The position numbers and the translations under genes are program-made. 36,307 nucleotides of DNA, taken from the IMG/VR virus record IMGVR_UViG_3300006802_000042, positions 1 to 36,307 of that record. The stretch is one strand, 5' to 3'. The notes below the pieces were generated by a model. The model was not told the DNA's origin. It did not search any database and worked only from the letters and a program-made list of their open reading frames with translations. Origin of the DNA: a virus. Below, in pieces: positions 1,230-34,408 of this stretch (the stretch's first letter is position 1; the number at the start of each line of letters is the position of its first letter).

Positions 1230-1718
1230 ATGAAAACCATTGATATCGAGATAGCACTTGTTAAGAAATTTGATTGCCGGAGAAACCTCATTGTTCCAAA
1301 TGTTAGTTGGGGGTTTTTATATGATGAGTCGTTGGGCAGGCACTATGAAGCGGATTTGCTGGTTGTGAGTAAGGCTGGGTACGTAATTGAAATCGAAATC
1401 AAAACCAGTAAAGCTGATCTTATCCGGGACAAACTAAAAAAAATGCGACATGACAGTAATAAAATTAAGTATTTATATTTTGCGGTCCCGGAAAACATAG
1501 TTGATGTGTGCTTTGAACATGCGCCTGAAAAAGCTGGTATAATAGTTGTGAGAGAAACAGGAATGCCTAAAAAGTTTAGGCAAAAGAAGTGTAGCGTATT
1601 ACGAAAGCCTAAAATGATAGGCAGATATAAAATTCTTGAAAGCGAGCGATATCAACTTATGCGGTTGCTTTGCATGAGGATTTGGAATCTAAAAAAGAAG
1701 TTGGCAAATGAAAATTAA
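1230..1718 (+). CDS. PD-(D/E)XK nuclease-like protein (MmcB-like)
   Basis: A 162-residue protein. The core YEADLLVVS...GYVIEIEIKTSKADL has an acidic residue (E40/D42), a hydrophobic strand and E-x-K (E56, K58), the PD-(D/E)XK active-site pattern. The following DKLKKM and IKYLYFAVPE resemble MmcB-like repair nucleases. ATG 1230 is chosen because GAGG (1217-1220) is correctly spaced; in-frame ATG 1221 and GTG 1194 also exist. It is the last gene of the rightward early unit and contains one copy of the palindrome family (1564-1582). Confidence 0.75.
   Translation: MKTIDIEIALVKKFDCRRNLIVPNVSWGFLYDESLGRHYEADLLVVSKAGYVIEIEIKTSKADLIRDKLKKMRHDSNKIKYLYFAVPENIVDVCFEHAPEKAGIIVVRETGMPKKFRQKKCSVLRKPKMIGRYKILESERYQLMRLLCMRIWNLKKKLANEN
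1564..1582. repeat. Palindrome family copy (intragenic)
   Basis: TGCCTAAA and TTTAGGCA form a perfect inverted repeat around a 3-base centre AAG, inside the nuclease gene (codons for MPKKFRQ). It matches the half-site TGMCYAAA seen elsewhere. A shorter hairpin, GCCTA/TAGGC, follows at 1607-1622. Being intragenic, it could be coincidence. Confidence 0.5.
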
Positions 1719-1817
1719 ATTCATTTTCAAACAATCTAATCGAGAGAGAGTGGAGACAGAGATAACATCTCGCACAATTACATATTTTGTGTATAAAAAA
1801 ACAACAATAAACAATAA

Positions 1818-1851
1818 AAGCAAGAAAGCCGTTAAATAGCATTTCTTGCTT
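1818..1851. terminator. Bidirectional terminator-like hairpin
   Basis: AAGCAAGAAA (1818-1827) pairs with TTTCTTGCTT (1842-1851) around a 14-base loop. On the minus strand it is followed by a T-rich tract (complement of 1795-1817). It lies between the end of the rightward early unit (1718) and the end of the leftward small-gene unit (2014). The 1852-2013 stretch that follows shows no convincing gene. Confidence 0.6.
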
Positions 1852-2013
1852 AATTATTGCATTATCCTAATAGGTATCAATTTTTACTCTTGGATGTGTT
1901 TAAGGTATTATAAAAGAAATGTCAATGCTTATTTAACTGGTTATATGATAAGCCTGACAAAACCGTAATTTGGTGCCTTGTGTGCATTCCTCGTCGATTT
2001 TAACGATGTCTCA

Positions 2014-2151
2014 CTATTTCTTTTTCCTTTCTTTTCTCTTTGTCAGTTCTTTATACATCACTTCATCTTGATCTCTTCCGTCACCAAGTGTAAGACATAC
2101 GAGCCATGTGAATATTATCATTGCTATTAGTGTAATTATTAGTGTGTTCAT
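2014..2151 (-). CDS. 45-residue membrane peptide, unknown
   Basis: Starts with ATGA overlapping the stop of the upstream minus-strand gene, with GGGGAAAG as ribosome site. Residues 3-22 (TLIITLIAMIIFTWLVCLTL) are a membrane segment, and the tail is strongly charged and ends ERKKK. It is the last gene of the leftward four-gene group. Function unknown. Confidence 0.6.
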   Translation of the reverse strand: MNTLIITLIAMIIFTWLVCLTLGDGRDQDEVMYKELTKRKERKKK

Positions 2152-2333
2152 TCTTTCCCCTTTCCTTTTACTAGATTTTTAAAAAGTTCGGCATCTTGCC
2201 TGCATGTTTCTAAGTGTATATTGTAATACAGCTTAGCTTTTGATTCTTCTTCTTTTAGTTTTGCTTTTAGGTACATGTTTTCAGACCTAAGTCTTTCTAT
2301 TTCAAGTATTCTATCAACTTCTGTTATTATCAT
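2148..2333 (-). CDS. 61-residue coiled-coil protein, unknown
   Basis: Begins MIITEVDRILEIERL and is mostly a heptad-patterned helix (ERLRSENMYLKAKLKEEE). ATG 2333 is preferred because AGGAG lies 7 bases upstream. A longer frame from 2390 would read through two copies of the palindrome. The palindrome at 2345-2360 abuts the Shine-Dalgarno site (TTTAGGCAGGAG in the sense direction). It overlaps the next gene by ATGA. No family is recognised. Confidence 0.6.
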   Translation of the reverse strand: MIITEVDRILEIERLRSENMYLKAKLKEEESKAKLYYNIHLETCRQDAELFKNLVKGKGKE

Positions 2334-2344
2334 GTTTTCTCTCC

Positions 2345-2400
2345 TGCCTAAATTTAGTAAATCCTTGCCTAAATATTCAAATTTAATCATATTTAGTCAT
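2345..2400 (-). repeat. Palindrome family cluster before the 2333 gene
   Basis: The stretch contains CTAAATTTAG (a 10-bp perfect palindrome within TGCCTAAATTTAG), a degenerate copy at 2366-2390 and an extra half-site ATTTAGTCAT at 2391-2400. In the sense (minus) direction the last copy runs straight into the AGGAG of the next gene. The TAA stop of the upstream gene is formed inside the outer half-site. Confidence 0.7.
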
Positions 2401-2620
2401 TCCTTAAAATGTCCATGTGCTCAGATAAACACTCTTCGCAATTGTCGTAATTTTCTCTTCGGCATTTTTTGCAGCAATGCTCACATAACATATCTTTCTC
2501 ACATGCCGATAGAGCCTTAATCTCCAACTCAATTTCTTTTATTTGCTTATCTGTGTAGTGATGTGGACGCCAGCGAAGCAATCTCTCAAGGTTATATATC
2601 CGTAACTGTTTATCTCTCAT
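2393..2620 (-). CDS. 75-residue cysteine-rich protein, unknown
   Basis: The N-terminal half is basic (RIYNLERLLRWRPHHYTDKQ). The C-terminal half carries eight cysteines, including CEHCCKKC and NCEEC, so a zinc-binding domain is likely. ATG 2620 is chosen because GGAGG lies just upstream. A longer start at 2638 uses an ATG immediately upstream of that site, touching the palindrome. A regulatory or nucleic-acid-binding role is possible but not shown. Confidence 0.62.
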   Translation of the reverse strand: MRDKQLRIYNLERLLRWRPHHYTDKQIKEIELEIKALSACEKDMLCEHCCKKCRRENYDNCEECLSEHMDILRND

Positions 2621-2636
2621 TTTTTTCCTCCATTGC

Positions 2637-2664
2637 ATGACTAAATTTTATTAAATTTAGTCAT
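2637..2664 (-). repeat. Palindrome family copy before the 2620 gene
   Basis: Perfect 12-bp arms, ATGACTAAATTT and AAATTTAGTCAT, around TATT. Both half-sites are of the TGAC type. In the sense direction it ends about 7 bases before the GGAGG of the 2620 gene, and it also overlaps the end of the 2661 gene. Confidence 0.75.
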
Positions 2665-2825
2665 TTTCTGCTTATTTGCATATTGGTTGTTATTCCACAC
2701 AAAAACTCTTCTATTTTGTGTGCAAGTTTCTGGTCGCTATCAGGAGTATTAATATCCTTCCTGAGTCTGTAATATTTTATAAAGTCTTTTAATATAATTT
2801 CAAACAACCCATCTGACACTTTCAT
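2661..2825 (-). CDS. 54-residue protein, unknown
   Basis: MKVSDGLFEIILKDFIKYYR begins a helical, charged protein with no recognised domain. ATG 2825 has AAGGAG 8 bases upstream. A longer frame from 2918 is discounted because its first 31 codons run through a palindrome copy (reading MTKYDQIEYLG). It is the promoter-proximal gene of the leftward group. Confidence 0.55.
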   Translation of the reverse strand: MKVSDGLFEIILKDFIKYYRLRKDINTPDSDQKLAHKIEEFLCGITTNMQISRK

Positions 2826-2863
2826 TTTGCTTCTCCTTAAAAAATTGTAAAATAATTTAATCA

Positions 2864-2897
2864 TGCCCAAATATTCTATTTGGTCATATTTGGTCAT
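2864..2897 (-). repeat. Palindrome family copy plus extra half-site
   Basis: CCAAATA/TATTTGG arms with a TTC centre, flanked by TG-C and GTCAT, followed directly by a second half-site ATTTGGTCAT (2888-2897). It is the C:G variant of the family. In the sense direction it lies about 40 bases upstream of the 2825 gene. Confidence 0.75.
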
Positions 2898-3168
2898 TCT
2901 AAGAGTATATATAAGCACACATTATGCCCCATGCCTTGATAAAATAATAAATAATTTATAAACACCCCAACTATAACAACTTAAGAAATAATGTTTATTT
3001 TTAATCTTTTTTGTCAAATCCAGAAAACGCAAAACATTCGTACATAAAATCTTAAGTGCTATAATAACAACAATATAAAAAATACGTAAAATATTCGCTA
3101 AAAAGTATATATAATGACAACTCCTTATATAATAAACATATATGGAACCCAAGCTTGCGAAAATATTA

Positions 3169-3242
3169 CGCCTAAATATTCTATTGCCTAGCCCAAATAT
3201 TCTATTGCCCAAATTTATTAAAATTTGGTCATATTTGGTCAT
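3169..3242 (-). repeat. Composite array of palindrome modules
   Basis: Reading left to right: a half-unit CCTAAATATTCTATTG (3171-3186), a half-unit CCCAAATATTCTATTG (3192-3207), a full long palindrome (3207-3232, arms CCAAATTT/AAATTTGG around ATTA) and another half-site ATTTGGTCAT (3233-3242). It looks like repeated duplication and rearrangement of the same modules. Confidence 0.7.
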
Positions 3243-3310
3243 AAATAAATAAACACTTGACAAAAGAACTAATATGTTGTAAGTAATAGTTGTCAAGAGC
3301 TAACCTTTGA

Positions 3311-3480
3311 CAAATATACAAAGGTATCTGCACACACGCAATGCAGACAAGGCGCCACAAAAATAAGTCCTTGCAGCACTAATTAATAAGGTCGTGTCTG
3401 TGTGGTGGAGGTTGGAGAAGATCGCCGAGAGTGTTAGCTGCCAACCGAGAGACCCACTCATAGTGATAGTAAAAGATAGT
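3311..3480. ncRNA. Candidate structured non-coding patch upstream of terS
   Basis: This patch is clearly richer in G+C than its flanks and has no convincing gene. It holds several nested pairings: TCTGCA/TGCAGA (around 3328-3347), CAAGG/CCTTG (around 3349-3374), and GGTTGG (3410-3415) with CCAACC (3441-3446), enclosed by GTGG (3402-3405) and CCAC (3454-3457). It could be a structured RNA, or a packaging (cos or pac) signal, given its place just before the terminase genes. Confidence 0.3.
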
Positions 3481-3486
3481 TACTGC

Positions 3487-3512
3487 GCCTAAATTTATTA
3501 AAATTTAGTCAT
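3487..3512 (-). repeat. Palindrome family copy, long-centre type
   Basis: CTAAATTT/AAATTTAG arms around ATTA, flanked by GC and GTCAT. It is identical to the long copy in the 3169-3242 array, except that a T:A pair replaces a C:G pair in the stem. Confidence 0.75.
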
Positions 3513-3563
3513 TATTTATAAGGTACTATATATTAGGATTAATAGCTTTAAAATTATTAACAT

Positions 3564-3587
3564 TGCCCAAATATTCTATTTGGTCAT
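3564..3587 (-). repeat. Palindrome family copy, C:G variant
   Basis: CCAAATA/TATTTGG arms with a TTC centre and TG-C / GTCAT flanks. It is identical over 24 bp to the copy starting at 2864. Confidence 0.78.
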
Positions 3588-3594
3588 ACACTAC

Positions 3595-3618
3595 TGCCTA
3601 AATATTCTATTTAGTCAT
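3595..3618 (-). repeat. Palindrome family copy, T:A variant, before terS
   Basis: CTAAATA/TATTTAG arms with a TTC centre. It differs from the neighbouring copy at 3564 only by the compensating T:A for C:G pair. It ends 13 bases before the terS start codon, which lacks a Shine-Dalgarno site. Confidence 0.78.
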
Positions 3619-3631
3619 TAAATAAAATACC

Positions 3632-4093
3632 ATGGAAAATGTAATAGCAAATTTGCCAAAACTACCAAAGGTTAGGGTTAAATTGTCTGTGCCACTTATA
3701 GCTAATATGTATAACAAGGGATATAAGTGTACGGAAATTGCTAAATTAACAGGGTATTCACACCAAAGGATAAGTCAATTCACAGCCCAACATTATGACC
3801 ATATGATCGTTCTTTTGGATAATAGTGATGTTATTTCAGCCTTACAGAGTAAGTACTTAGCGACGAAATTTAGGGATAAACTTGATGACATTGTCAACAG
3901 TAGCGAGGCTTTTACGAAAAGGGATCTCATCCCCTGTATCGCTGGTGCAGACCAGATGACTAAGCAATATTTAAGCCTTTCCGGTAAATCTCCACAGAAT
4001 GTCACAATTAACCAGGTAAACGTCAATATTGAGGAACTTGAGCAGCGAAAACGTGAAGTTTTAGAGCGTATCAAGAAGTTACCAAGTTCCTAA
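3632..4093 (+). CDS. Probable terminase small subunit
   Basis: A 153-residue protein with an N-terminal helix-turn-helix (VPLIANMYNKGYKCTEIAKL, then TGYSHQRISQF, residues about 20-50) and a C-terminal charged coiled coil (NIEELEQRKREVLERIKKL). This is the usual plan of phage small terminases, which bind the packaging site as rings. It directly precedes terL, and P22 gp3 is of similar length (162). There is no Shine-Dalgarno site. The start follows a palindrome and the string AATAAAATACCATGG. Identity rests on architecture and position, not a strong family motif. Confidence 0.72.
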   Translation: MENVIANLPKLPKVRVKLSVPLIANMYNKGYKCTEIAKLTGYSHQRISQFTAQHYDHMIVLLDNSDVISALQSKYLATKFRDKLDDIVNSSEAFTKRDLIPCIAGADQMTKQYLSLSGKSPQNVTINQVNVNIEELEQRKREVLERIKKLPSS

Positions 4094-4125
4094 ACCCTTA
4101 TGTGTCTTAGATATGGGGAACCAAA

Positions 4126-4272
4126 ATGAACAGTGTCCTTAAATTCAACATTTCGTATAAGATACATTATGCGAAGTATCGCATTTTGGTACAGTGGTTT
4201 TTGTGTATGGGGTACCCCATTGTGGCTAGGGGGGTATGTGCCCTGGCGAAGGAAGGGTGGTATATATACTAG
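4126..4272 (+). CDS. 48-residue ORF in the terS-terL gap, doubtful
   Basis: Begins ATGAACAGT after GGGGAA. The product is aromatic-rich (NISYKIHYAKYRILVQWF) with no family. It covers the dif-like site and a 14-bp palindrome, so the apparent frame may simply be non-coding signal sequence. Other frames in this gap also stay open, which weakens the call. Confidence 0.28.
   Translation: MNSVLKFNISYKIHYAKYRILVQWFLCMGYPIVARGVCALAKEGWYIY
4150..4177. other. dif/XerCD-like recombination site (candidate)
   Basis: ATTTCGTATAA (4150-4160) is the XerC-arm sequence I recall from Acinetobacter p-dif sites. It is followed by a 6-bp centre GATACA and TTATGCGAAGT (4167-4177), which shares TTATG and 8 of 11 positions with the E. 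coli XerD arm. The length, 11+6+11, is that of dif. The second arm is also a near inverted repeat of the first (9 of 11). No tyrosine recombinase gene is present, so host XerCD would be needed. Inference only. Confidence 0.4.
4207..4220. repeat. 14-bp perfect palindrome
   Basis: ATGGGGTACCCCAT is self-complementary and stands in a short GC-rich stretch between terS and terL. Nearby GGGGGG (4229-4234) and CCCCCC (about 4287-4292) could pair over a 50-base loop. Possibly part of a packaging or regulatory signal. Confidence 0.4.
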
Positions 4273-4314
4273 TGACACAGAAAATTCCCCCCAAATAAAG
4301 GATTTTTTCCAACT

Positions 4315-6222
4315 ATGTCTTACACTGTTAATAATAATACAAGTGATGTCCAGAAGAAAGTTGTCAAGTATTGTATTGATGGTCGGCGTAGTAGTGGAGG
4401 TCGTCCCAAGGGAGCCAAGGATAAGAAGCGAAGGCGTGTTAAAGACAAGAATGGTTTATATCCTGAAGAGCGTAAGCCTCCTGGTCGGCCACGTACTAAA
4501 ATACAGGGATTGAAGCCGGTTTCCAGGATAAGTGATGCGGAGTTGCATCGTGAGGTGCAGGAGATTGAGCGCCAGCTTCTTGCGCAGTATGAGATTAAGG
4601 AGAAGTATACACGAGAGCATTTATGGGAGTTTTACGAACCTCTTTTATGGCAGGAGAGGTTATTTGAAGCGGTAAGAACTAATTTAATAACCGTGGCGCC
4701 TGCTCCTAATAAGATTGGGAAGACGACGTCTATTTGTCCTCTTGTGTGTTCATGGCTTAAGGGTTATGAAGCGTGGAATGTTGTTGATATTGGGTATCCG
4801 GGAGCGGTTAAAGTTAATGATTTGTATTATAAGCCGTCATCTTTAGGTATAAAACCACCTGTTAAGATAAGGTTAACGGGTGAGGACTGGAATCATCATT
4901 TAGGGCAAGTTGTGGTTAGGGAGCTTAAGAAGTGGTTACCTCTTCAAGATTTTGTGATAAAGAAAAATAGTGCGGGTGTTGAGTGGTTATGGGAGGATAT
5001 GAAGAGTGGTAGTACGCTTGAGTTAATGACACATGGGATGGATTATGCACTTTTTGAGAGTTGGCGTGGTCATGGTTGGATAGCTGATGAGCCGCCTCCG
5101 TTTGGGTTATTTAAAGCGATGGGCAGGGGGTTGTTCGGGAATAAAGGAAAGATGGTTTTTCCCACAACCCCTCTTTCACAGGCATGGATACTGGATGAAT
5201 TAGTTTTAAAGAACAGAACTGACACTGCGGTGTTACAGGATCTTTGTATCCTTGATAATGAGATATTTTATGCTGAAGATGATTGTGTATTAACTGAGAT
5301 GGGGCTTGGGGGGATAAGTACAAAGTATTGGCGTGATGCCACACTTGATAAGAAGGAATTTTTTCGGTTATTGCTATATGTTGATGACCAAGGTAGTGAT
5401 GCAGAGAAGTTTTTACTCGATAAAACAAAGTCAAGTAAGCATCATCTTATAAATGATCTTAAGTTCCTCAGATTTGCCAAGGATACGGCAATTGATGAGA
5501 AACCGTCTCGATTTTTTGGTACATTTAAGAAACTTGTTGGGTTAGTGATAAAGAACTTTAACCCTTCATTGCATATAATAAGGAATTCTGAGGATTTCAA
5601 AGTGCCGACAAACTGGCCAGTAACAGTAATGATTGATTTTCACCTTAGTAAACCTCATGCTATATCTTTTTATGCGTGCGATGAACATAATCGCCATTAT
5701 GCAATTGATGAACATTGGATTAATTGTTCTGCCGAGGAAATAGCAGACTTGATAATAAGGCGTAAAACAGGCGATACTCTCTGGAATATAACTGACGTGT
5801 ACATTGATCCGCTTTCTGCCGGAGATAATAAGTACATGAAGAATAGATTTGAAGACACAGAGTCAGCTTTTGCTGTAATAGAAGAGAGACTTGATGCAAA
5901 AGGGATAGAACTTCATGTTGCAAAGAAAGACAAAACTAGTGGGTTTATGAATATAAGAAAATGGCTTGCCGGACCGAATAAGATTCCTATATTGTTTTTT
6001 CTTGACAAATTACAATCCTTTGGTTCTAGTACTCATAATGGTGTTCTTTATGAGATACAAAGACTTGCTATTGACCAAGATACCGGTCAGATTGAGAAGG
6101 TGAATGACGATTTTATGGAAAACTTATACCGTTACACGTTAACAGGTGTTGAGTATCGGGAGTATACGAGAGAGCGCATAGTTAGTGTTGGGATGGGAGT
6201 AGAAAATAGTTTGAGTTGGTGA
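4315..6222 (+). CDS. Terminase large subunit
   Basis: This 635-residue packaging motor has an N-terminal ATPase and a C-terminal RNase H-like nuclease. The Walker A-type loop is APAPNKIGKTTS (about residues 128-139) and the Walker B is WIADEPP (D258, E259). Nuclease acidic residues are seen in VMIDFHL (about D441) and VYIDPLS (about D499). Unusually, residues 20-65 form a basic extension with two AT-hook-like GRP cores (GGRPKGAKDKKRRR and PPGRPRTK), a motif more often seen in small terminases. It is longer than P22 gp2 (499). The ribosome site is weak (AAAGGA, far upstream). Confidence 0.93.
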   Translation: MSYTVNNNTSDVQKKVVKYCIDGRRSSGGRPKGAKDKKRRRVKDKNGLYPEERKPPGRPRTKIQGLKPVSRISDAELHREVQEIERQLLAQYEIKEKYTREHLWEFYEPLLWQERLFEAVRTNLITVAPAPNKIGKTTSICPLVCSWLKGYEAWNVVDIGYPGAVKVNDLYYKPSSLGIKPPVKIRLTGEDWNHHLGQVVVRELKKWLPLQDFVIKKNSAGVEWLWEDMKSGSTLELMTHGMDYALFESWRGHGWIADEPPPFGLFKAMGRGLFGNKGKMVFPTTPLSQAWILDELVLKNRTDTAVLQDLCILDNEIFYAEDDCVLTEMGLGGISTKYWRDATLDKKEFFRLLLYVDDQGSDAEKFLLDKTKSSKHHLINDLKFLRFAKDTAIDEKPSRFFGTFKKLVGLVIKNFNPSLHIIRNSEDFKVPTNWPVTVMIDFHLSKPHAISFYACDEHNRHYAIDEHWINCSAEEIADLIIRRKTGDTLWNITDVYIDPLSAGDNKYMKNRFEDTESAFAVIEERLDAKGIELHVAKKDKTSGFMNIRKWLAGPNKIPILFFLDKLQSFGSSTHNGVLYEIQRLAIDQDTGQIEKVNDDFMENLYRYTLTGVEYREYTRERIVSVGMGVENSLSW

Positions 6223-6229
6223 GTTTAAA

Positions 6230-6254
6230 ATGACTAAATAGAATATTTAGGCAT
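6230..6254 (+). repeat. Palindrome family copy abutting a ribosome site
   Basis: CTAAATA/TATTTAG arms with a GAA centre, flanked by TGA and GGCA, are followed at once by the AGGAGG (6255-6260) of the gene at 6267. Here the family is in plus orientation, again in the sense direction of the downstream gene. A 7-bp stem with a 3-base loop would end at the Shine-Dalgarno site. Confidence 0.8.
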
Positions 6255-6266
6255 AGGAGGAAAACA

Positions 6267-6566
6267 ATGGCTGAAGAAGCTAGATGTGGTTATTCGGGTA
6301 AGAGGGGTAAGCCAAGGACTAACATTGTTCCCGAGGTAAAAAGCGAAGGTATTGAAGTGAAAAAACCAGCAATGGTAGTATCTGTATATAATAAGAGTAA
6401 TGTGATTAGTGATATAGAAGATGCGATATCAAAGTTGGGTAATATAAGTGAGAGTTGTTTTCTTGAAAATACTGATGAGCATTCTGATTATTCAATTGCT
6501 GCTAGAACGATTTTAAGCGCAAAGAACAGGCTTGAGACTGCTAAGGGTTATATAAACAAGAAATGA
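6267..6566 (+). CDS. 99-residue protein between terL and portal, unknown
   Basis: Excellent ribosome site (AGGAGG, 6 bases from ATG), directly preceded by a palindrome copy. The product has a basic start (RCGYSGKRGKPRTN) and a helical C-terminal half. It overlaps the portal start by ATGA, so it is coupled to head genes. It may be a small head or decoration-type protein; I recognise no family. Confidence 0.75.
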   Translation: MAEEARCGYSGKRGKPRTNIVPEVKSEGIEVKKPAMVVSVYNKSNVISDIEDAISKLGNISESCFLENTDEHSDYSIAARTILSAKNRLETAKGYINKK

Positions 6567-8275
6567 AAGTAGATGATGACATATTATCTGAAGCAAGAGT
6601 AAGGTTTTCTTATCTTGAGAAAACTGACCGTCACAATAGAGACAAATACAAAGAGAATGTCAGATTTGTCTATAACATTGATAATGGTCAGTGGCCTGAT
6701 GATGTTCAAGCTGAGAGGAAGCAACAGGAGAGGTCGTGTTTTACCTCAGATAAGCTGAGGGTACAGGTTGCGCATGTAGCTAACAATGAGCGGTTGCAGA
6801 GGATAGCTGGTAACGTCCGCCCTGTTGATGATAAGGGTGATGTAGTTACTGCTGAAATTATTTCAGGTATAATACGGCATATAGAGCACAGTTCGAATGC
6901 AGAATTAATCTATATTAAGGGTGGGGAGTGTGCCATAGCAGGAAATGTCGGTTATTGGCGTATTGTAACAAAATATCTGCCGGACAGTTTTGACCAGGAA
7001 TTATTATTAGTGCCTATAAAAGATCCAATGTCTGTTTATCTTGATCCCGACAGGAGATTTGGCTTTATAAGAACAAAAATCGGCAAAAAGCAGTTTGCTT
7101 CTCTGTATCCGAAAGCGGTTGAAGAAAACTTTGAAATGACTGATGAAGACAGAAGTATGTGGTATGACGAGGAGTCTGTCTACATTGCTGAATATTTCTA
7201 TAAAGAGCGCAACGATTATGAAATAGTGCAATTAATAAATGATATTACCGGGGAAACAGTAGATATACAGTCGAACGCCTTACAAATAAAAGAGATGGAA
7301 AGCCAGGGGTGGCGTGCCCAGAAGAGAAGGAAAACAGATACGGAAGCAGTTAAATGGTGTAAGATAACCGCATCTCAGGTGTTGGAAAAAGGGGAGTGGG
7401 TAGGTGATGCTATACCAATTATTGAGGTACAGGGTGATTGGGTATGGCTTAATGGAAAGTTGTACAAACGGGCGCTCATCGAAGGTGCTAAAGATGACCA
7501 GAGGTTGTATAATTATTGGAAGACTTCCGCAACAGAAAAATACGCACTTGCAAACAAGGCTCCATATCTTGTAACAGATAAGATGATAGAAGGAAATGAG
7601 AACGCATGGGCAAATGCTCATAAAAGATTATACGCATATATAAAATTTAAATTTGACAAGGGTATGTCGCCAAGACGTGAGCCGCCTCCACAAATGGACT
7701 CTGGGTCCGCTGCAATGTTAGAGATATGTAGGAGAGACATTCATGATGCTATAGGAAGATCTGAGGCTGGCCTTGGGCAAAGAAGCAATGAGAGGTCTAG
7801 TGTTGCTATTAATGCCAGAGCGAACAAAGCAGATTTAGCGTCTTTTCATTTTCCTGATAATTTCAGACAAGCTATACTCGAAACCGTCAGGCAGCTTATA
7901 CAGGCAATACCAAAAGTATACGATGGTGCAAGGATACAGAGAATAATCGGGGAAGATGGGCAACACTCTTTTGTGCCTCTTAACCAGGATATTGAGACAC
8001 AAAATGGTGATATATATAGAATAGAATTAAACTCAGGGAAGTATGATGTTGTGGAAGATGTAAAAATAATGTCTACGAGAAGGCAAGAGGTTTCAGAGGA
8101 AATGAGAGCATTTTCTCAAGGATCACCACAGTTGCAATTATTGTTGGCTCCTGAGATAGCAAAACTACAAGACTGGCCTGGTGCAACAAAGTTCGGTGAA
8201 AGACTCCAACAGTTACTACCGGGTCTCTTGGGCATAAAACAGCAAGAAGAAGAGCCTGTACCAGAGGGCGGATAA
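6563..8275 (+). CDS. Portal protein, P22 gp1-like
   Basis: A 570-residue portal. The start RVRFSYLEKTDRHNRDKYKE, the NGQWPDDVQAERKQQ segment and PLxIKDPMSVYLDPDRR-like core (VPIKDPMSVYLDPDRRFG) are characteristic of P22-type portals, which form the 12-fold vertex ring through which DNA enters. It is shorter than P22 gp1 (725), mainly at the C-terminal barrel. It lies between terL and scaffold in the canonical order. Confidence 0.9.
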   Translation: MKVDDDILSEARVRFSYLEKTDRHNRDKYKENVRFVYNIDNGQWPDDVQAERKQQERSCFTSDKLRVQVAHVANNERLQRIAGNVRPVDDKGDVVTAEIISGIIRHIEHSSNAELIYIKGGECAIAGNVGYWRIVTKYLPDSFDQELLLVPIKDPMSVYLDPDRRFGFIRTKIGKKQFASLYPKAVEENFEMTDEDRSMWYDEESVYIAEYFYKERNDYEIVQLINDITGETVDIQSNALQIKEMESQGWRAQKRRKTDTEAVKWCKITASQVLEKGEWVGDAIPIIEVQGDWVWLNGKLYKRALIEGAKDDQRLYNYWKTSATEKYALANKAPYLVTDKMIEGNENAWANAHKRLYAYIKFKFDKGMSPRREPPPQMDSGSAAMLEICRRDIHDAIGRSEAGLGQRSNERSSVAINARANKADLASFHFPDNFRQAILETVRQLIQAIPKVYDGARIQRIIGEDGQHSFVPLNQDIETQNGDIYRIELNSGKYDVVEDVKIMSTRRQEVSEEMRAFSQGSPQLQLLLAPEIAKLQDWPGATKFGERLQQLLPGLLGIKQQEEEPVPEGG

Positions 8276-27622: not shown

Positions 27623-27645
27623 AGTAGAGTCCTATAATAAAATAG

Positions 27646-27675
27646 TTAGCTAGGGAACATGCTTTCCCTAGCTAA
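27646..27675 (+). terminator. Perfect 12-bp hairpin before the 27685 gene
   Basis: TTAGCTAGGGAA and TTCCCTAGCTAA pair perfectly around a 6-base loop, 23 bases after the stop of the glycyl-radical-like gene. There is no T tract; instead AATAAAATATCATGG follows, which includes the start codon of the next gene. It may be a terminator, an RNA processing site or a translational control hairpin. Confidence 0.6.
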
Positions 27676-27684
27676 TAAAATATC

Positions 27685-28378: not shown

Positions 28379-28573
28379 TTAATCCTCCAAATCGTCAATG
28401 TTATCAATAAAATCTTTAAGCTCATTAATGCTTCTACCGACTATTGCTCCTTTCCTCCTTTCTGTTTTTAATCTCAGTAAACAAAGAAATTTAAACCATT
28501 GCCTAAAAATGCCCAAAGAGTTTTGGGCAAGTTTAGGCATAAATTGTTTTGATCTGTAAATTATATATTTCAT
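28379..28573 (-). CDS. 64-residue ORF, doubtful
   Basis: MKYIIYRSKQFMPKLAQNSL begins a basic protein with an acidic end (DNIDDLED). GAGAAG lies near the ATG, and it starts 10 bases after the stop of the gene upstream of it. A strong nested palindrome (28500-28539) lies within it, and a GGAGG site occurs internally without a start codon, so the frame may be partly terminator. Confidence 0.32.
   Translation of the reverse strand: MKYIIYRSKQFMPKLAQNSLGIFRQWFKFLCLLRLKTERRKGAIVGRSINELKDFIDNIDDLED
28500..28539. repeat. Nested palindrome of the TGMCYAAA family, possible terminator
   Basis: An outer TGCCTAAA/TTTAGGCA pair encloses an inner TGCCCAAA/TTTGGGCA pair around GAGT. Both the T:A and C:G half-site variants are present. 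It lies about 125 bases beyond the end of the late unit and near the end of the leftward unit, so it could end converging transcripts. Confidence 0.65.
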
Positions 28574-29026: not shown

Positions 29027-29388
29027 TTGTCGGGACTCCCACAATATCTCTTTTTGAATCCTATTTTATAAAGCAGTTCATTGCATATGGATTCGCTAAG
29101 GGACAGCATCTTTTTCATGTCAAAATTACTGATTAAACACTGGTCGTAGAGTTCTCCTTGTTTCCCAAAATTCTGATACCATACTATGGCACAGAGCCAG
29201 GGCTTATATTCATGTTCTTCTAATAGCATAATCTTTTTTAACCACTCTTTTTGTGTTAGTCTCTGTCTGGTTTCTGTGTTCCTTAGTCTTACGGCTTCTG
29301 AAGGGCTGTATCCTTCTGCTCTTCGCTGTCTATAAATTTCTCTTTTTCTTGCAAGTAGTCTCTCTCTGGATTCACAATCTATTGTCAT
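29023..29388 (-). CDS. 121-residue protein, unknown
   Basis: Basic N-terminal helix (ESRERLLARKREIYRQRRAE) followed by GYSPSEAVRLRNTETRQRL, HTH-like in spacing. It then has a helical C-terminal domain rich in aromatic residues. AAGGAG lies upstream of the ATG. It is coupled to the zinc-ribbon gene by ATGA. A DNA-binding role is possible. Confidence 0.65.
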   Translation of the reverse strand: MTIDCESRERLLARKREIYRQRRAEGYSPSEAVRLRNTETRQRLTQKEWLKKIMLLEEHEYKPWLCAIVWYQNFGKQGELYDQCLISNFDMKKMLSLSESICNELLYKIGFKKRYCGSPDK

Positions 29389-29425
29389 TATTGATCACTC
29401 CTTTTAACTCGTCAAGTTAATGTGA

Positions 29426-29611
29426 CTACATTTCATTATTTGTAGTCACCTGTCTTTTTCTCATACGTAACAACATTGTTATTTCTGGTAAGAATGGAGA
29501 ATTTTTCACACTTGTTGCCCATACTATTTCCAACTTATAATCCTCATTCAATTCATTAAGAGATTGCTCTACAAAGTCTCCTTCTCCAGAAATAATTTTA
29601 TACTCTTCCAA
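29426..29611 (-). CDS. DUF1737-like small protein, start uncertain
   Basis: EEYKIISGEGDFVEQSLNEL with NEDYKLEIVWATSV is the pattern of short DUF1737-type proteins. A TTG at 29611 with AAGGA upstream is favoured because it follows the previous stop by 2 bases. The first in-frame ATG, 29665, would overlap the zinc-finger gene by 52 bases and has no ribosome site. Function unknown. Confidence 0.5.
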   Translation of the reverse strand: MEEYKIISGEGDFVEQSLNELNEDYKLEIVWATSVKNSPFLPEITMLLRMRKRQVTTNNEM

Positions 29612-29880: not shown

Positions 29881-30246
29881 TTACCGTTGAAGATTAACCT
29901 GAATCATATCAGGTTTAAGTTTATAAGCACCACCAGTGTTCTTGTCGACCAGCAGATGGCTTATGAGTCCAAAATCAATGAAAGCGTTAGCTGTAGCAAA
30001 ATCTGTTTCTCTGACAAGATTGACGTTGTATGGCGCATACCCTGCTTTAACTATCTGCACGTTGTAAGTTAATGCTTTCCGCTTTAGTTCTATGGTAGTA
30101 GGTGTAACGCCCTTTTCAACACCATCCACCTTCACGGTTGCCCCATCAGGTACCGAGCTGACAGGGATTTTCTGTGTTGTGCCACGGCTTATGCTTCCGC
30201 AACCGATGGCAGATATAATAAGTAACGATGCTATTATTTTTCTCAT
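29881..30246 (-). CDS. PEGA-type lipoprotein
   Basis: 121 residues. RKIIASLLIISAIGC is a lipoprotein signal with C16 as the lipid-attached residue. The mature part has a PEGA-like domain (VSSVPDGATVKVDGVEKGVT) and a tail ending KPDMIQVNLQR. A membrane-anchored protein made from the early unit could act in superinfection exclusion, as phage lipoproteins such as T5 Llp do, but it might also be a host-derived surface protein. AGGAG directly follows a palindrome copy. Confidence 0.78.
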   Translation of the reverse strand: MRKIIASLLIISAIGCGSISRGTTQKIPVSSVPDGATVKVDGVEKGVTPTTIELKRKALTYNVQIVKAGYAPYNVNLVRETDFATANAFIDFGLISHLLVDKNTGGAYKLKPDMIQVNLQR

Positions 30247-30256
30247 GTTATTCTCC

Positions 30257-30276
30257 TGCCTAAAATTTTTTAGTCA
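30257..30276 (-). repeat. Palindrome family copy before the lipoprotein gene
   Basis: TGCCTAAAA/TTTTAGTCA arms with one internal mismatch. In the sense direction the element ends TTTTAGGCA and runs into GGAG of the ribosome site, 5-6 bases before the start region. A weak hairpin (GAAGG/CCTTC, 30331-30349) also occurs in the 138-base gap between the lipoprotein and SSB genes. Confidence 0.72.
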
Positions 30277-31409: not shown

Positions 31410-32142
31410 GGCTCTGCACCTCCTGTGTTAATGCTCTTTCTATGGTCCACCCCCTCCTTATTCTATTGCCTAGCGTTATCCTGTTTATATTCAGTTTTTT
31501 TGCCCACTGAGAAATCGTAAGTTCAATATTTTTAAATCTAATAAAAACATTCCTCCTTGTGTTATTACATTGTTCTATTTTGGTTGCCCACCTACAATTT
31601 TCCGGTGTGTAATCACCATCATTATTAATTCTGTCTATAGTCATATCTTCTGGTTTCCATCCCATGTCCTCAAAAAAGTTAATAAAACTATCCCATCGTT
31701 TGCAAATTTTTATACCCCTACCACCATAATTTTCATATTCGGTACTTTGTGGATTAAGGCAACGGGATCTCATATATCTCCACGTGTACCAAGTAGGTGT
31801 GTTTACCAAATTATGTTTTGTGGCTGTTTCTTTTTGTAAACACCTACATGAAGAAATAAGCCCCGCCTTTAAATGGTCGCCCCTAATAGTTTTCTCGTTT
31901 CCACAATCACATATTGTTTTCCAATAATACTGACTACCATTCTCCTTCAGTCTATACGCAACTTCTTTTACAATAAGCCTTCCAAATCTTTTTCCGGTTA
32001 AATCAATCAATTCTTTTTTCACTCTATCACCTCTTCCTCCGTAATCTTTATATCCTGGATTGTTCTGGTCATTACATCTATATTTCATACTCTCCCAAGT
32101 TTTGTAAGTTTTTGTTTTGTACATTCTATGAATAATTGTCAT
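31399..32142 (-). CDS. HNH homing-type endonuclease with duplicated half-motif
   Basis: 247 residues. LTGKRFGRLIV and ICDCGNEKTIRG are the zinc-ribbon start. TWRYMRSRCLNP, YENYGGRGIKICKRW and DMTIDRINNDGDYTPENCRW are the HNH core of this phage family. The first 40 residues repeat the core's first half (TWESMKYRCNDQ, YKDYGGRG) and stop at GGRG. The start at 32142 couples by ATGA to the annealase; a GTG near 32022 (VKKELIDLTG) with a good GAGGTGATA site would give the normal-length enzyme. Probably a recent invader of the recombination operon. Confidence 0.85.
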   Translation of the reverse strand: MTIIHRMYKTKTYKTWESMKYRCNDQNNPGYKDYGGRGDRVKKELIDLTGKRFGRLIVKEVAYRLKENGSQYYWKTICDCGNEKTIRGDHLKAGLISSCRCLQKETATKHNLVNTPTWYTWRYMRSRCLNPQSTEYENYGGRGIKICKRWDSFINFFEDMGWKPEDMTIDRINNDGDYTPENCRWATKIEQCNNTRRNVFIRFKNIELTISQWAKKLNINRITLGNRIRRGWTIERALTQEVQSHAN

Positions 32143-32909
32143 ATTATTTTTCCTTCTACAGTATCAACCACTTGTTCAACCTTACTAACCTTTTTATCGA
32201 TCAATGCTTCGAGAGATTCTATCATACAGTTTTTATGAGCTACTTGAATTTTACATCCTAGTTCTTTGGCTTTCTTGGCTGCTAAGGCTTCGTCTTGTTG
32301 GTTTGTGATCAAGACTTTATCGTCTTCTGTGTATATCTTAAATTCATTATAGCCGTCTCTATCAGACTTTGTAACTTTTATAACCTTGCCTTTGTATTTC
32401 TCAAGCTCAGGTTTTGTCTCTAGTTTTGTGACATTATCTTTCACAACAGTCTTTTTCTCTGGTTTTTTATCTGTGTCGTCAATATGCAATTCCCCTTTAT
32501 GCCACAGATCAAGAGCTGCGCCAAATCTCATCGCTGCATTTCTAAGCGCATCTCCTATGAGTTCTTTTACAGCATCGCCTCCTTTCTTGTCGTAGGCATG
32601 ACCATACCCAAGGCGTGTAATACCACATACGGTAAGCCTGATCCATAGACCGCCTATATCGTCTATTGATGGCAGTCCTTTTTCGTCGAACGATAAAGGT
32701 TCCCATGTCCATTCAGGGTCAACGTCAAGCAACCTATCAGTTAAAGCAGCATGGCCAACATAGTCAAGGTGCAGGGCTGGTAAGCCGTGATAACCACCAC
32801 ACTCTTTACAATTACCTCTTGGACTATCTTTTTTATATGGTTTTGGAAGTTTGCTAATTTGGTTTTCTTTAAATGGTTCTCTGAGTGCTTTTAGTTTTTC
32901 CTTACTCAT
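32139..32909 (-). CDS. Rad52/Sak-like single-strand annealing protein
   Basis: 256 residues. LHLDYVGHAALTDRLLDVDP, GGLWIRLTVCGITRLGYGHA and DAVKELIGDALRNAAMRFGA with LDLW match the Rad52-like phage annealases. These form rings that anneal complementary strands. A CKECGGYHG zinc-like start and a charged tail (AKELGCKIQVAHK) follow the SSB-partner pattern. It overlaps the upstream small gene by 8 bases. Confidence 0.8.
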   Translation of the reverse strand: MSKEKLKALREPFKENQISKLPKPYKKDSPRGNCKECGGYHGLPALHLDYVGHAALTDRLLDVDPEWTWEPLSFDEKGLPSIDDIGGLWIRLTVCGITRLGYGHAYDKKGGDAVKELIGDALRNAAMRFGAALDLWHKGELHIDDTDKKPEKKTVVKDNVTKLETKPELEKYKGKVIKVTKSDRDGYNEFKIYTEDDKVLITNQQDEALAAKKAKELGCKIQVAHKNCMIESLEALIDKKVSKVEQVVDTVEGKII

Positions 32910-34075: not shown

Positions 34076-34408
34076 ATGGAACCAAAGCATATTAGTGAGG
34101 CTTTAAAAGATGCAGTTGATGCAATTATTCAGGCGGCTGATTATATTGAAGAAGACACAAAAAGAGAAGAGTCAAAAAATGAAACAATGTGGTTTGATGA
34201 TTTTATGGATTGGGTTGAAAATAGTGGTTATAAGTTTGAATTTGACACGGAAAAATTTATTATAAATATTGAATCAAGAAAATGTTTTCATACTATAAAC
34301 CTGAAAGACAAAAAACACAATAGGCGTGTTCGTGATTTTTTTAATTTCATCAAAGAAATAGATAAAAACATATTACAAAAATGTAATATGTGCAGAAAGG
34401 GGAAATAA
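34076..34408 (+). CDS. 110-residue protein before the primase-helicase, unknown
   Basis: Helical N-terminus (HISEALKDAVDAIIQAADYI), a mixed middle (WFDDFMDWVENSGYKFEFDT) and a C-terminal CNMC in a basic tail. It is separated by 1 base from the helicase gene. It may be an accessory of replication. Ribosome site AGGGG. Confidence 0.65.
   Translation: MEPKHISEALKDAVDAIIQAADYIEEDTKREESKNETMWFDDFMDWVENSGYKFEFDTEKFIINIESRKCFHTINLKDKKHNRRVRDFFNFIKEIDKNILQKCNMCRKGK

Follow-up and report, generated by a model that had tools for sequence, protein, structure and literature searches.

A family of short palindromes exists as a genuine repeat set in the circular 36-kb phage genome analysed here (the window is the whole viral record of 36,307 bases, whose 123-bp terminal repeat gives a circular map of ~36.2 kb). 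The strict pattern TGACYAAAN{4,20}TTTRGGCA has seven matches in the genome, as against none in 100 dinucleotide shuffles, and a wider search for arm pairs (TGMCYAAA / TTTRGKCA) returned 15 pairings, which make up 12 palindromes when the one-mismatch copy at 3486 is counted; 60 shuffles yielded no exact pairing and a mean of 0.27 one-mismatch pairings per shuffle. The half-sites themselves are enriched, TGACYAAAT occurring 12 times where 1.3 are expected and TTTRGGCA 15 times where 3.5 are. Five copies stand before genes, four in the gene-poor region 3200-3620 and two within predicted genes (Table 1).

The leading reading, unproven and held here tentatively, is that a hairpin family multiplied in this phage genome and works through RNA, by way of a binding factor, before genes 6267 and 30246 and across the leftward block of small genes; a family of DNA sites and a repeat that spreads by itself or serves as a linker come close behind in likelihood. 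In this proposal a short hairpin would have multiplied within the genome, and the stem UGACYAAAU...AUUURGGCA, whose third pair is an A-G mismatch, would form in the mRNA, either in a 5' leader or in the stretch from the upstream stop to the Shine-Dalgarno site of the following gene, and there a host or phage factor could recognise the mismatched stem and adjust ribosome loading or mRNA processing at the hairpin. We infer hairpin formation in mRNA, the binding factor and the change in expression alike, and what favours action at the RNA level is the stop-hairpin-Shine-Dalgarno layout together with the orientation of the copies.

Table 1. Copies of the palindrome, with predicted folds (kcal/mol; z against shuffles)
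Copy	Position	Strand	Setting	Predicted fold
Symmetrical, TGCCTAAA-AAG-TTTAGGCA	1564-1582	+	Inside MmcB-like gene	
Degenerate, loop-less, TTACTAAATTTAGGCA; one mismatch	2345-2360	-	Runs into AGGAG of gene 2333	
Hairpin, 34-nt span	2366-2399	-	Upstream of gene starting 2333	
Symmetrical, TGACTAAATTTAATAAAATTTAGTCA	2638-2663	-	Gene start 2620 downstream	-11.4; z -7.5
Doubled 5' arm, 10-nt offset; hairpin proper 2864-2886	2864-2896	-	38 nt upstream of gene start 2825	
Tandem/nested array: 5' arm, full 26-nt hairpin (3206-3231), two more 3'-arm units	3165-3241	-		
26-nt copy, one mismatch	3486-3511	-	Gene-poor region	
23-nt copy, C/G variant	3564-3586	-	Upstream of terS (3632, +), antisense to it	
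23-nt copy, T/A variant	3595-3617	-	Upstream of terS, antisense to it	
Hairpin, TGACTAAATAGAATATTTAGGCA	6231-6253	+	Between terL stop (6220-6222) and AGGAGG (6255-6260) of gene 6267-6566	-4.9; z -4.9
Palindrome nested in palindrome, outer T/A, inner C/G	28500-28539	-	Inside ORF 28379-28573	-23.7; z -5.95
Short, 20 nt	30257-30276	-	Merges with AGGAG of lipoprotein gene 29881-30246	-2.8; z -0.36

The phage and its genes

The genome is 38% GC. Going right from 6563, PHROGs identifies a portal, a scaffold, a major head protein and a head-tail adaptor-like protein, and, in another block, primase-helicase, single-strand annealing protein, exonuclease, SSB and HNH endonuclease. TerL is assigned to 4315-6222 on its size, its portal neighbour and the 58% identical relatives in the same place in L005 and L006, the gene itself matching no PHROG or Pfam model, and terS at 3632-4093 (+) was called from where it lies and from a weak helix-turn-helix hit. 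The genes at 2148-2825 belong to no PHROGs family, nor to any Pfam family as scanned. Start codons were picked by ribosome site and frame, without experiment.

The lipoprotein gene at 29881-30246 (-) encodes a PEGA domain and resembles a stand-alone gene of Salmonella phage epsilon34 that lies beside mnt/arc/ant. The first half of the single-strand annealing protein (32139-32909, -) is ~60% identical to mycobacteriophage counterparts, despite the 38% GC of the phage. By eye, TTGACA-like boxes facing both ways are found at 3239-3330 in the gene-poor region, possibly a divergent promoter region.

Covariation of the arms

On the coding strand of gene 6267 and of the leftward small genes, the element is TGAC Y AAAT - loop - ATTT R GGCA. 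The Y/R letters are C/G in four palindromes (2864, 3206, 3564 and the inner 28510) and T/A in eight (1564, 2366, 2638, 3486, 3595, 6231, the outer 28500 and 30257); they agree between the arms in 12 of 12 and are never mixed, which has p=1/495 (0.002) under arm independence, a value that shared copy ancestry weakens. Each of the two letter pairs is found with the TAGAATA loop as well as with the TTTAATAAA loop, the two main types, and at least one further switch is therefore needed, by a two-sided change or by recombination. Stem positions 9 and 10 also vary on both arms. Counted on the arms only, because one arm came out misplaced when MAFFT aligned full copies, standard pairs amount to 88.8% against 80.9% in letter shuffles and at most 54% in slid registers, and the distinct arm pairs hold eight cells with a two-sided change, a number that none of 500 shuffles reached. 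At the third pair, the seven non-coding strict-pattern copies and 3486 have an A-G mismatch, 2638 has A-T, and the copies within ORFs have C-G. The arms are 3, 4, 7, 10 or 18 nt apart, for a total span of 19, 20, 23, 26 or 34 nt. TAGAAT, present in some of the loops, was considered as a promoter element and dropped, as the 26-nt and 20-nt variants do not conserve it.

Arms that covary, inner stems changed on both sides and unconstrained spacing are most simply accounted for by selection on a hairpin, and covariation with a variable gap fits a hairpin better than a DNA operator of fixed spacing; covariation can also arise, however, from the copying of whole elements or from a palindrome in DNA. 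A phage DNA-binding protein might occupy the half-sites TGMCYAAA, single or as inverted or tandem pairs, the cluster at 3165-3620 then being a control region or replication origin and the gene-start copies a stoperator-like regulon. We consider this rather doubtful. The copies do cluster in an 806-nt gene-poor region beside divergent genes, with further copies scattered at gene starts, and doubled arms recur at a constant 10-bp offset (2878/2888, 3223/3233, 28500/28510 and 28522/28532), which may reflect either the nesting of one copy in the middle of a ~20-nt palindrome or a protein that reads one helical turn. Yet the spans given above show neither fixed nor helical spacing of the inverted arms, concordance of Y and R is unexpected if half-sites are bound independently, and the genes tested include no recognised repressor, integrase or initiator.

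Position and orientation relative to genes

Nine of the 11 loci are non-coding, although non-coding sequence makes up 8% of 24-mer positions, and the family thus consists of dispersed, mainly extragenic palindromes, as extragenic repeats of the REP, MITE and RPE kinds do. Each of the five genes 2333, 2620, 2825, 6267 and 30246 has a copy 10-38 nt ahead of its start codon. A sequence-only reading of this genome had placed the palindrome directly in front of ribosome sites, and the layout it described can be read off the sequence: ATGACTAAATAGAATATTTAGGCAT at 6230-6254 ends at 6254 and AGGAGG occupies 6255-6260, the sense strand before genes 2333 (-) and 30246 (-) is TTTAGGCAGGAG, and the copy that it placed at 2637 (2638-2663) stops ~6-7 nt ahead of GGAGG. 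An arm does merge with the Shine-Dalgarno site at 2333 and 30246, but at 2333 the merging copy is a degenerate second one, the full palindrome of that gene (2366-2399) being 32 nt upstream.

Proximity to start codons is weakly above chance, and copies also occur elsewhere. Three of nine non-coding copies end no more than 20 nt from a start on their own strand (7.5% under random non-coding placement, P=0.025) and five of nine lie within 40 nt of a same-strand start (13%, P=0.003); with orientation ignored, the values are P=0.14 (at most 20 nt; random 15%) and P=0.06 (at most 40 nt). Nearness to the Shine-Dalgarno site is largely forced, because the gaps at the intercistronic sites are tiny (40, 59 and 44 nt). 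At these three sites the upstream stop is either in the 5' arm (TGA 2661-2663 of gene 2661-2825, which forms the first three bases of the 2638-2663 copy, and TAA 2393-2395 of gene 2393-2620, in the 2366-2399 copy) or, for terL, 8 nt before it. Since the 6231 copy follows the terL stop so closely and no promoter-like site is listed near it on that strand, this element is probably within an mRNA; the same lack of a listed promoter-like site speaks against a DNA operator there.

The A-G mismatch gives the asymmetric non-coding copies a direction, which agrees with that of the gene in four of four testable gene-linked copies. The uniform order claimed earlier, TGAC half first and GGCA half last, holds for these four, but the copy at 2638-2663 is symmetrical (TGACTAAAT...ATTTAGTCA). 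Copies 3564 and 3595 are oriented opposite to the downstream terS, four copies are away from any gene start in their own orientation, and the two ORF loci lack the mismatch.

It had also been suggested that selected phage genes are marked in this way. The element-linked genes do look like one class, small genes of unknown function that could be called accessory, together with the PEGA-domain lipoprotein gene, although the selection may reflect where a repeat is tolerated. In L005 and L006 terL runs straight into the portal gene, with neither the hairpin nor a counterpart of gene 6267, and gene 6267 is therefore an accessory gene. It is tempting to go further and envisage an RNA regulon, in which one factor reads the repeated A-G-mismatch hairpin between stop and Shine-Dalgarno site and sets the translation of the accessory genes as a class, but we regard this as quite unlikely.

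Folding and ribosome-site accessibility

Single copies have predicted folds from -2.8 (30257) to -11.4 kcal/mol (2638). Folding of the copies, in line with a check proposed earlier for the 5' regions, gave structure well beyond that of shuffles at 6231 and 2638, but at 30257 the copy folds no better than its own shuffles. The companion check, a comparison with genes that lack the element, speaks for the RNA-level reading: those genes are no more structured upstream than coding controls, and we rejected the idea that hairpins are a general upstream feature here. Sequestration or exposure of the Shine-Dalgarno site by the hairpin was likewise rejected, as for none of the five genes did shuffling of the hairpin take accessibility beyond the spread of the controls; gene 2333 came nearest to an effect, its native value being reached by 6% of shuffles. 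Control of translation or of the 5' end of the RNA, as first proposed, is in keeping with the covariation, spacing, layout and orientation, but accessibility is not consistently changed, and such control does not explain the copies in the gene-poor region and inside predicted genes. We take the mechanism as a reasonable hypothesis, short of a result.

No RNA-binding family was recognised among the genes scanned. Membership in a known RNA family was set aside, Rfam giving no match in the window above its gathering threshold, as was a structured non-coding RNA at 3320-3500 (z -0.3 and -1.1). That the copies are intrinsic terminators, or plain chance AT-rich palindromes, is very improbable: the short stems do lie near gene ends, but they have no T-run after them, none of the copies is listed by a scan of 1700-6700 for G+C-rich stems followed by a T run, and exact arm pairs are absent from the shuffled genomes.

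Nested, tandem and in-frame copies

At 28500-28539 one palindrome sits in the loop of another, the array at 3165-3241, with tandem half copies at 3165-3206, and the copy at 2366-2399 can be read as nested palindromes too. Such arrangements would be natural for a self-spreading or recombination-linker palindrome of no regulatory role, copied into gaps, into the loops of its own kind and sometimes into genes, and marking, perhaps helping, the shuffling of accessory genes by phage annealing recombination, an account that we think somewhat unlikely. The copy at 1564-1582 lies in a conserved gene, MmcB-like, where it encodes MPKKFRQ, part of an extra segment MPKKFRQK; four homologues are shorter at this stretch, which suggests an insertion, although the MmcB loop that holds the segment is variable regardless. 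A spreading palindrome would also suit the hairpin-free terL-portal junctions of the relatives that lack gene 6267, the single-strand annealing protein, exonuclease and SSB that the phage encodes, and the restriction of the family to this genome. On the other hand, no transposase family was matched among the genes scanned, though a host could supply one, and no target duplications were recognised by eye at the copies, which are only 19-34 bp long; consistent orientation, and pairing kept despite changed letters, suggest selection.

A 124-codon open frame at 2922-3296 (-), with a TTG start, crosses the AT-rich array, and the element inside it and the element before gene 2825 both translate as MTKYDQI. 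The frame was treated as non-coding because no good start or Shine-Dalgarno site was seen.

Distribution in other genomes

Among the collections searched the family is unique to this genome. It is absent from the nine other sequences scanned for hairpins and from the loci searched for the pattern. In other viruses the strict 23-mer and the tandem-arm pattern each gave no match; a looser pattern hit six contigs, with one match each and no array, which we read as chance matches, and a pattern of hairpin plus Shine-Dalgarno site hit three, with one copy each. The bacterial genomes searched contained neither the strict 23-mer nor a relative of TerL. BLAST of the array region returned weak short matches only, and the match in a Streptococcus phage has no half-sites.

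Comparison with known elements

The closest known categories each fail, or leave open, one defining feature. A PeSL (promoter early stem-loop) is defined by an early promoter attached to the stem-loop, whereas no promoter-like site is consistently attached to the copies here. As summarised in PMC4503421, repeated stem-loops of this type are tied to accessory-gene shuffling in T4-like phages. The hairpin bound by T4 gp43 lies upstream of the protein's own start, and gp43 also binds sequence overlapping the ribosome site (PMC3014915); some copies in the present phage would likewise put a predicted hairpin before a start, but gp43 controls one gene. The sites of T4 RegA, at or just 5' of the AUG in about 30 mRNAs (PMC3014915), offer a structureless contrast, as the palindromes described here form predicted stems and also occur away from starts.

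The stoperators of cluster A mycobacteriophages are many and dispersed, lie in short intergenic spaces, and are asymmetric and oriented with transcription (PMC9283540), a partial likeness that lends some weight to a DNA operator; however, each is an asymmetric 13-bp stretch of DNA bound by a monomeric repressor, in contrast to covarying palindromes of variable span. In the genes scanned, which took in part of the small ORFs, neither PHROGs nor Pfam recognised an immunity repressor, though one of an undescribed family may be present. Like REP- and MITE-like repeats, the Rickettsia palindromic elements are mainly intergenic, with some in frame within genes (PMC10969869), as are the copies here, but the Rickettsia elements are ~150 bp long, whereas ours have 19-34 bp, no associated transposase and a 36-kb phage as their setting.

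If the hairpin does control translation, a small tailed phage would coordinate its accessory genes via a single repeated RNA element, something for which we know of few documented cases beyond T4-type phages. Should it be a linker repeat instead, it would show a small phage multiplying palindromes along the borders of genes it has recently acquired. In both cases, the copies form a defined, testable set with natural compensatory variants.

Other palindromes are present in the same genome. The sequence GTGACTACAAATAATGAAATGTAGTCAC at 29420-29451 (-), before the gene starting at 29388, has TGACTA in common with the family and lacks the family arms, and strong unrelated hairpins stand right before genes 27685 (27645-27676, +; z -5.6) and 34410 (34367-34392, +; z -9.4).
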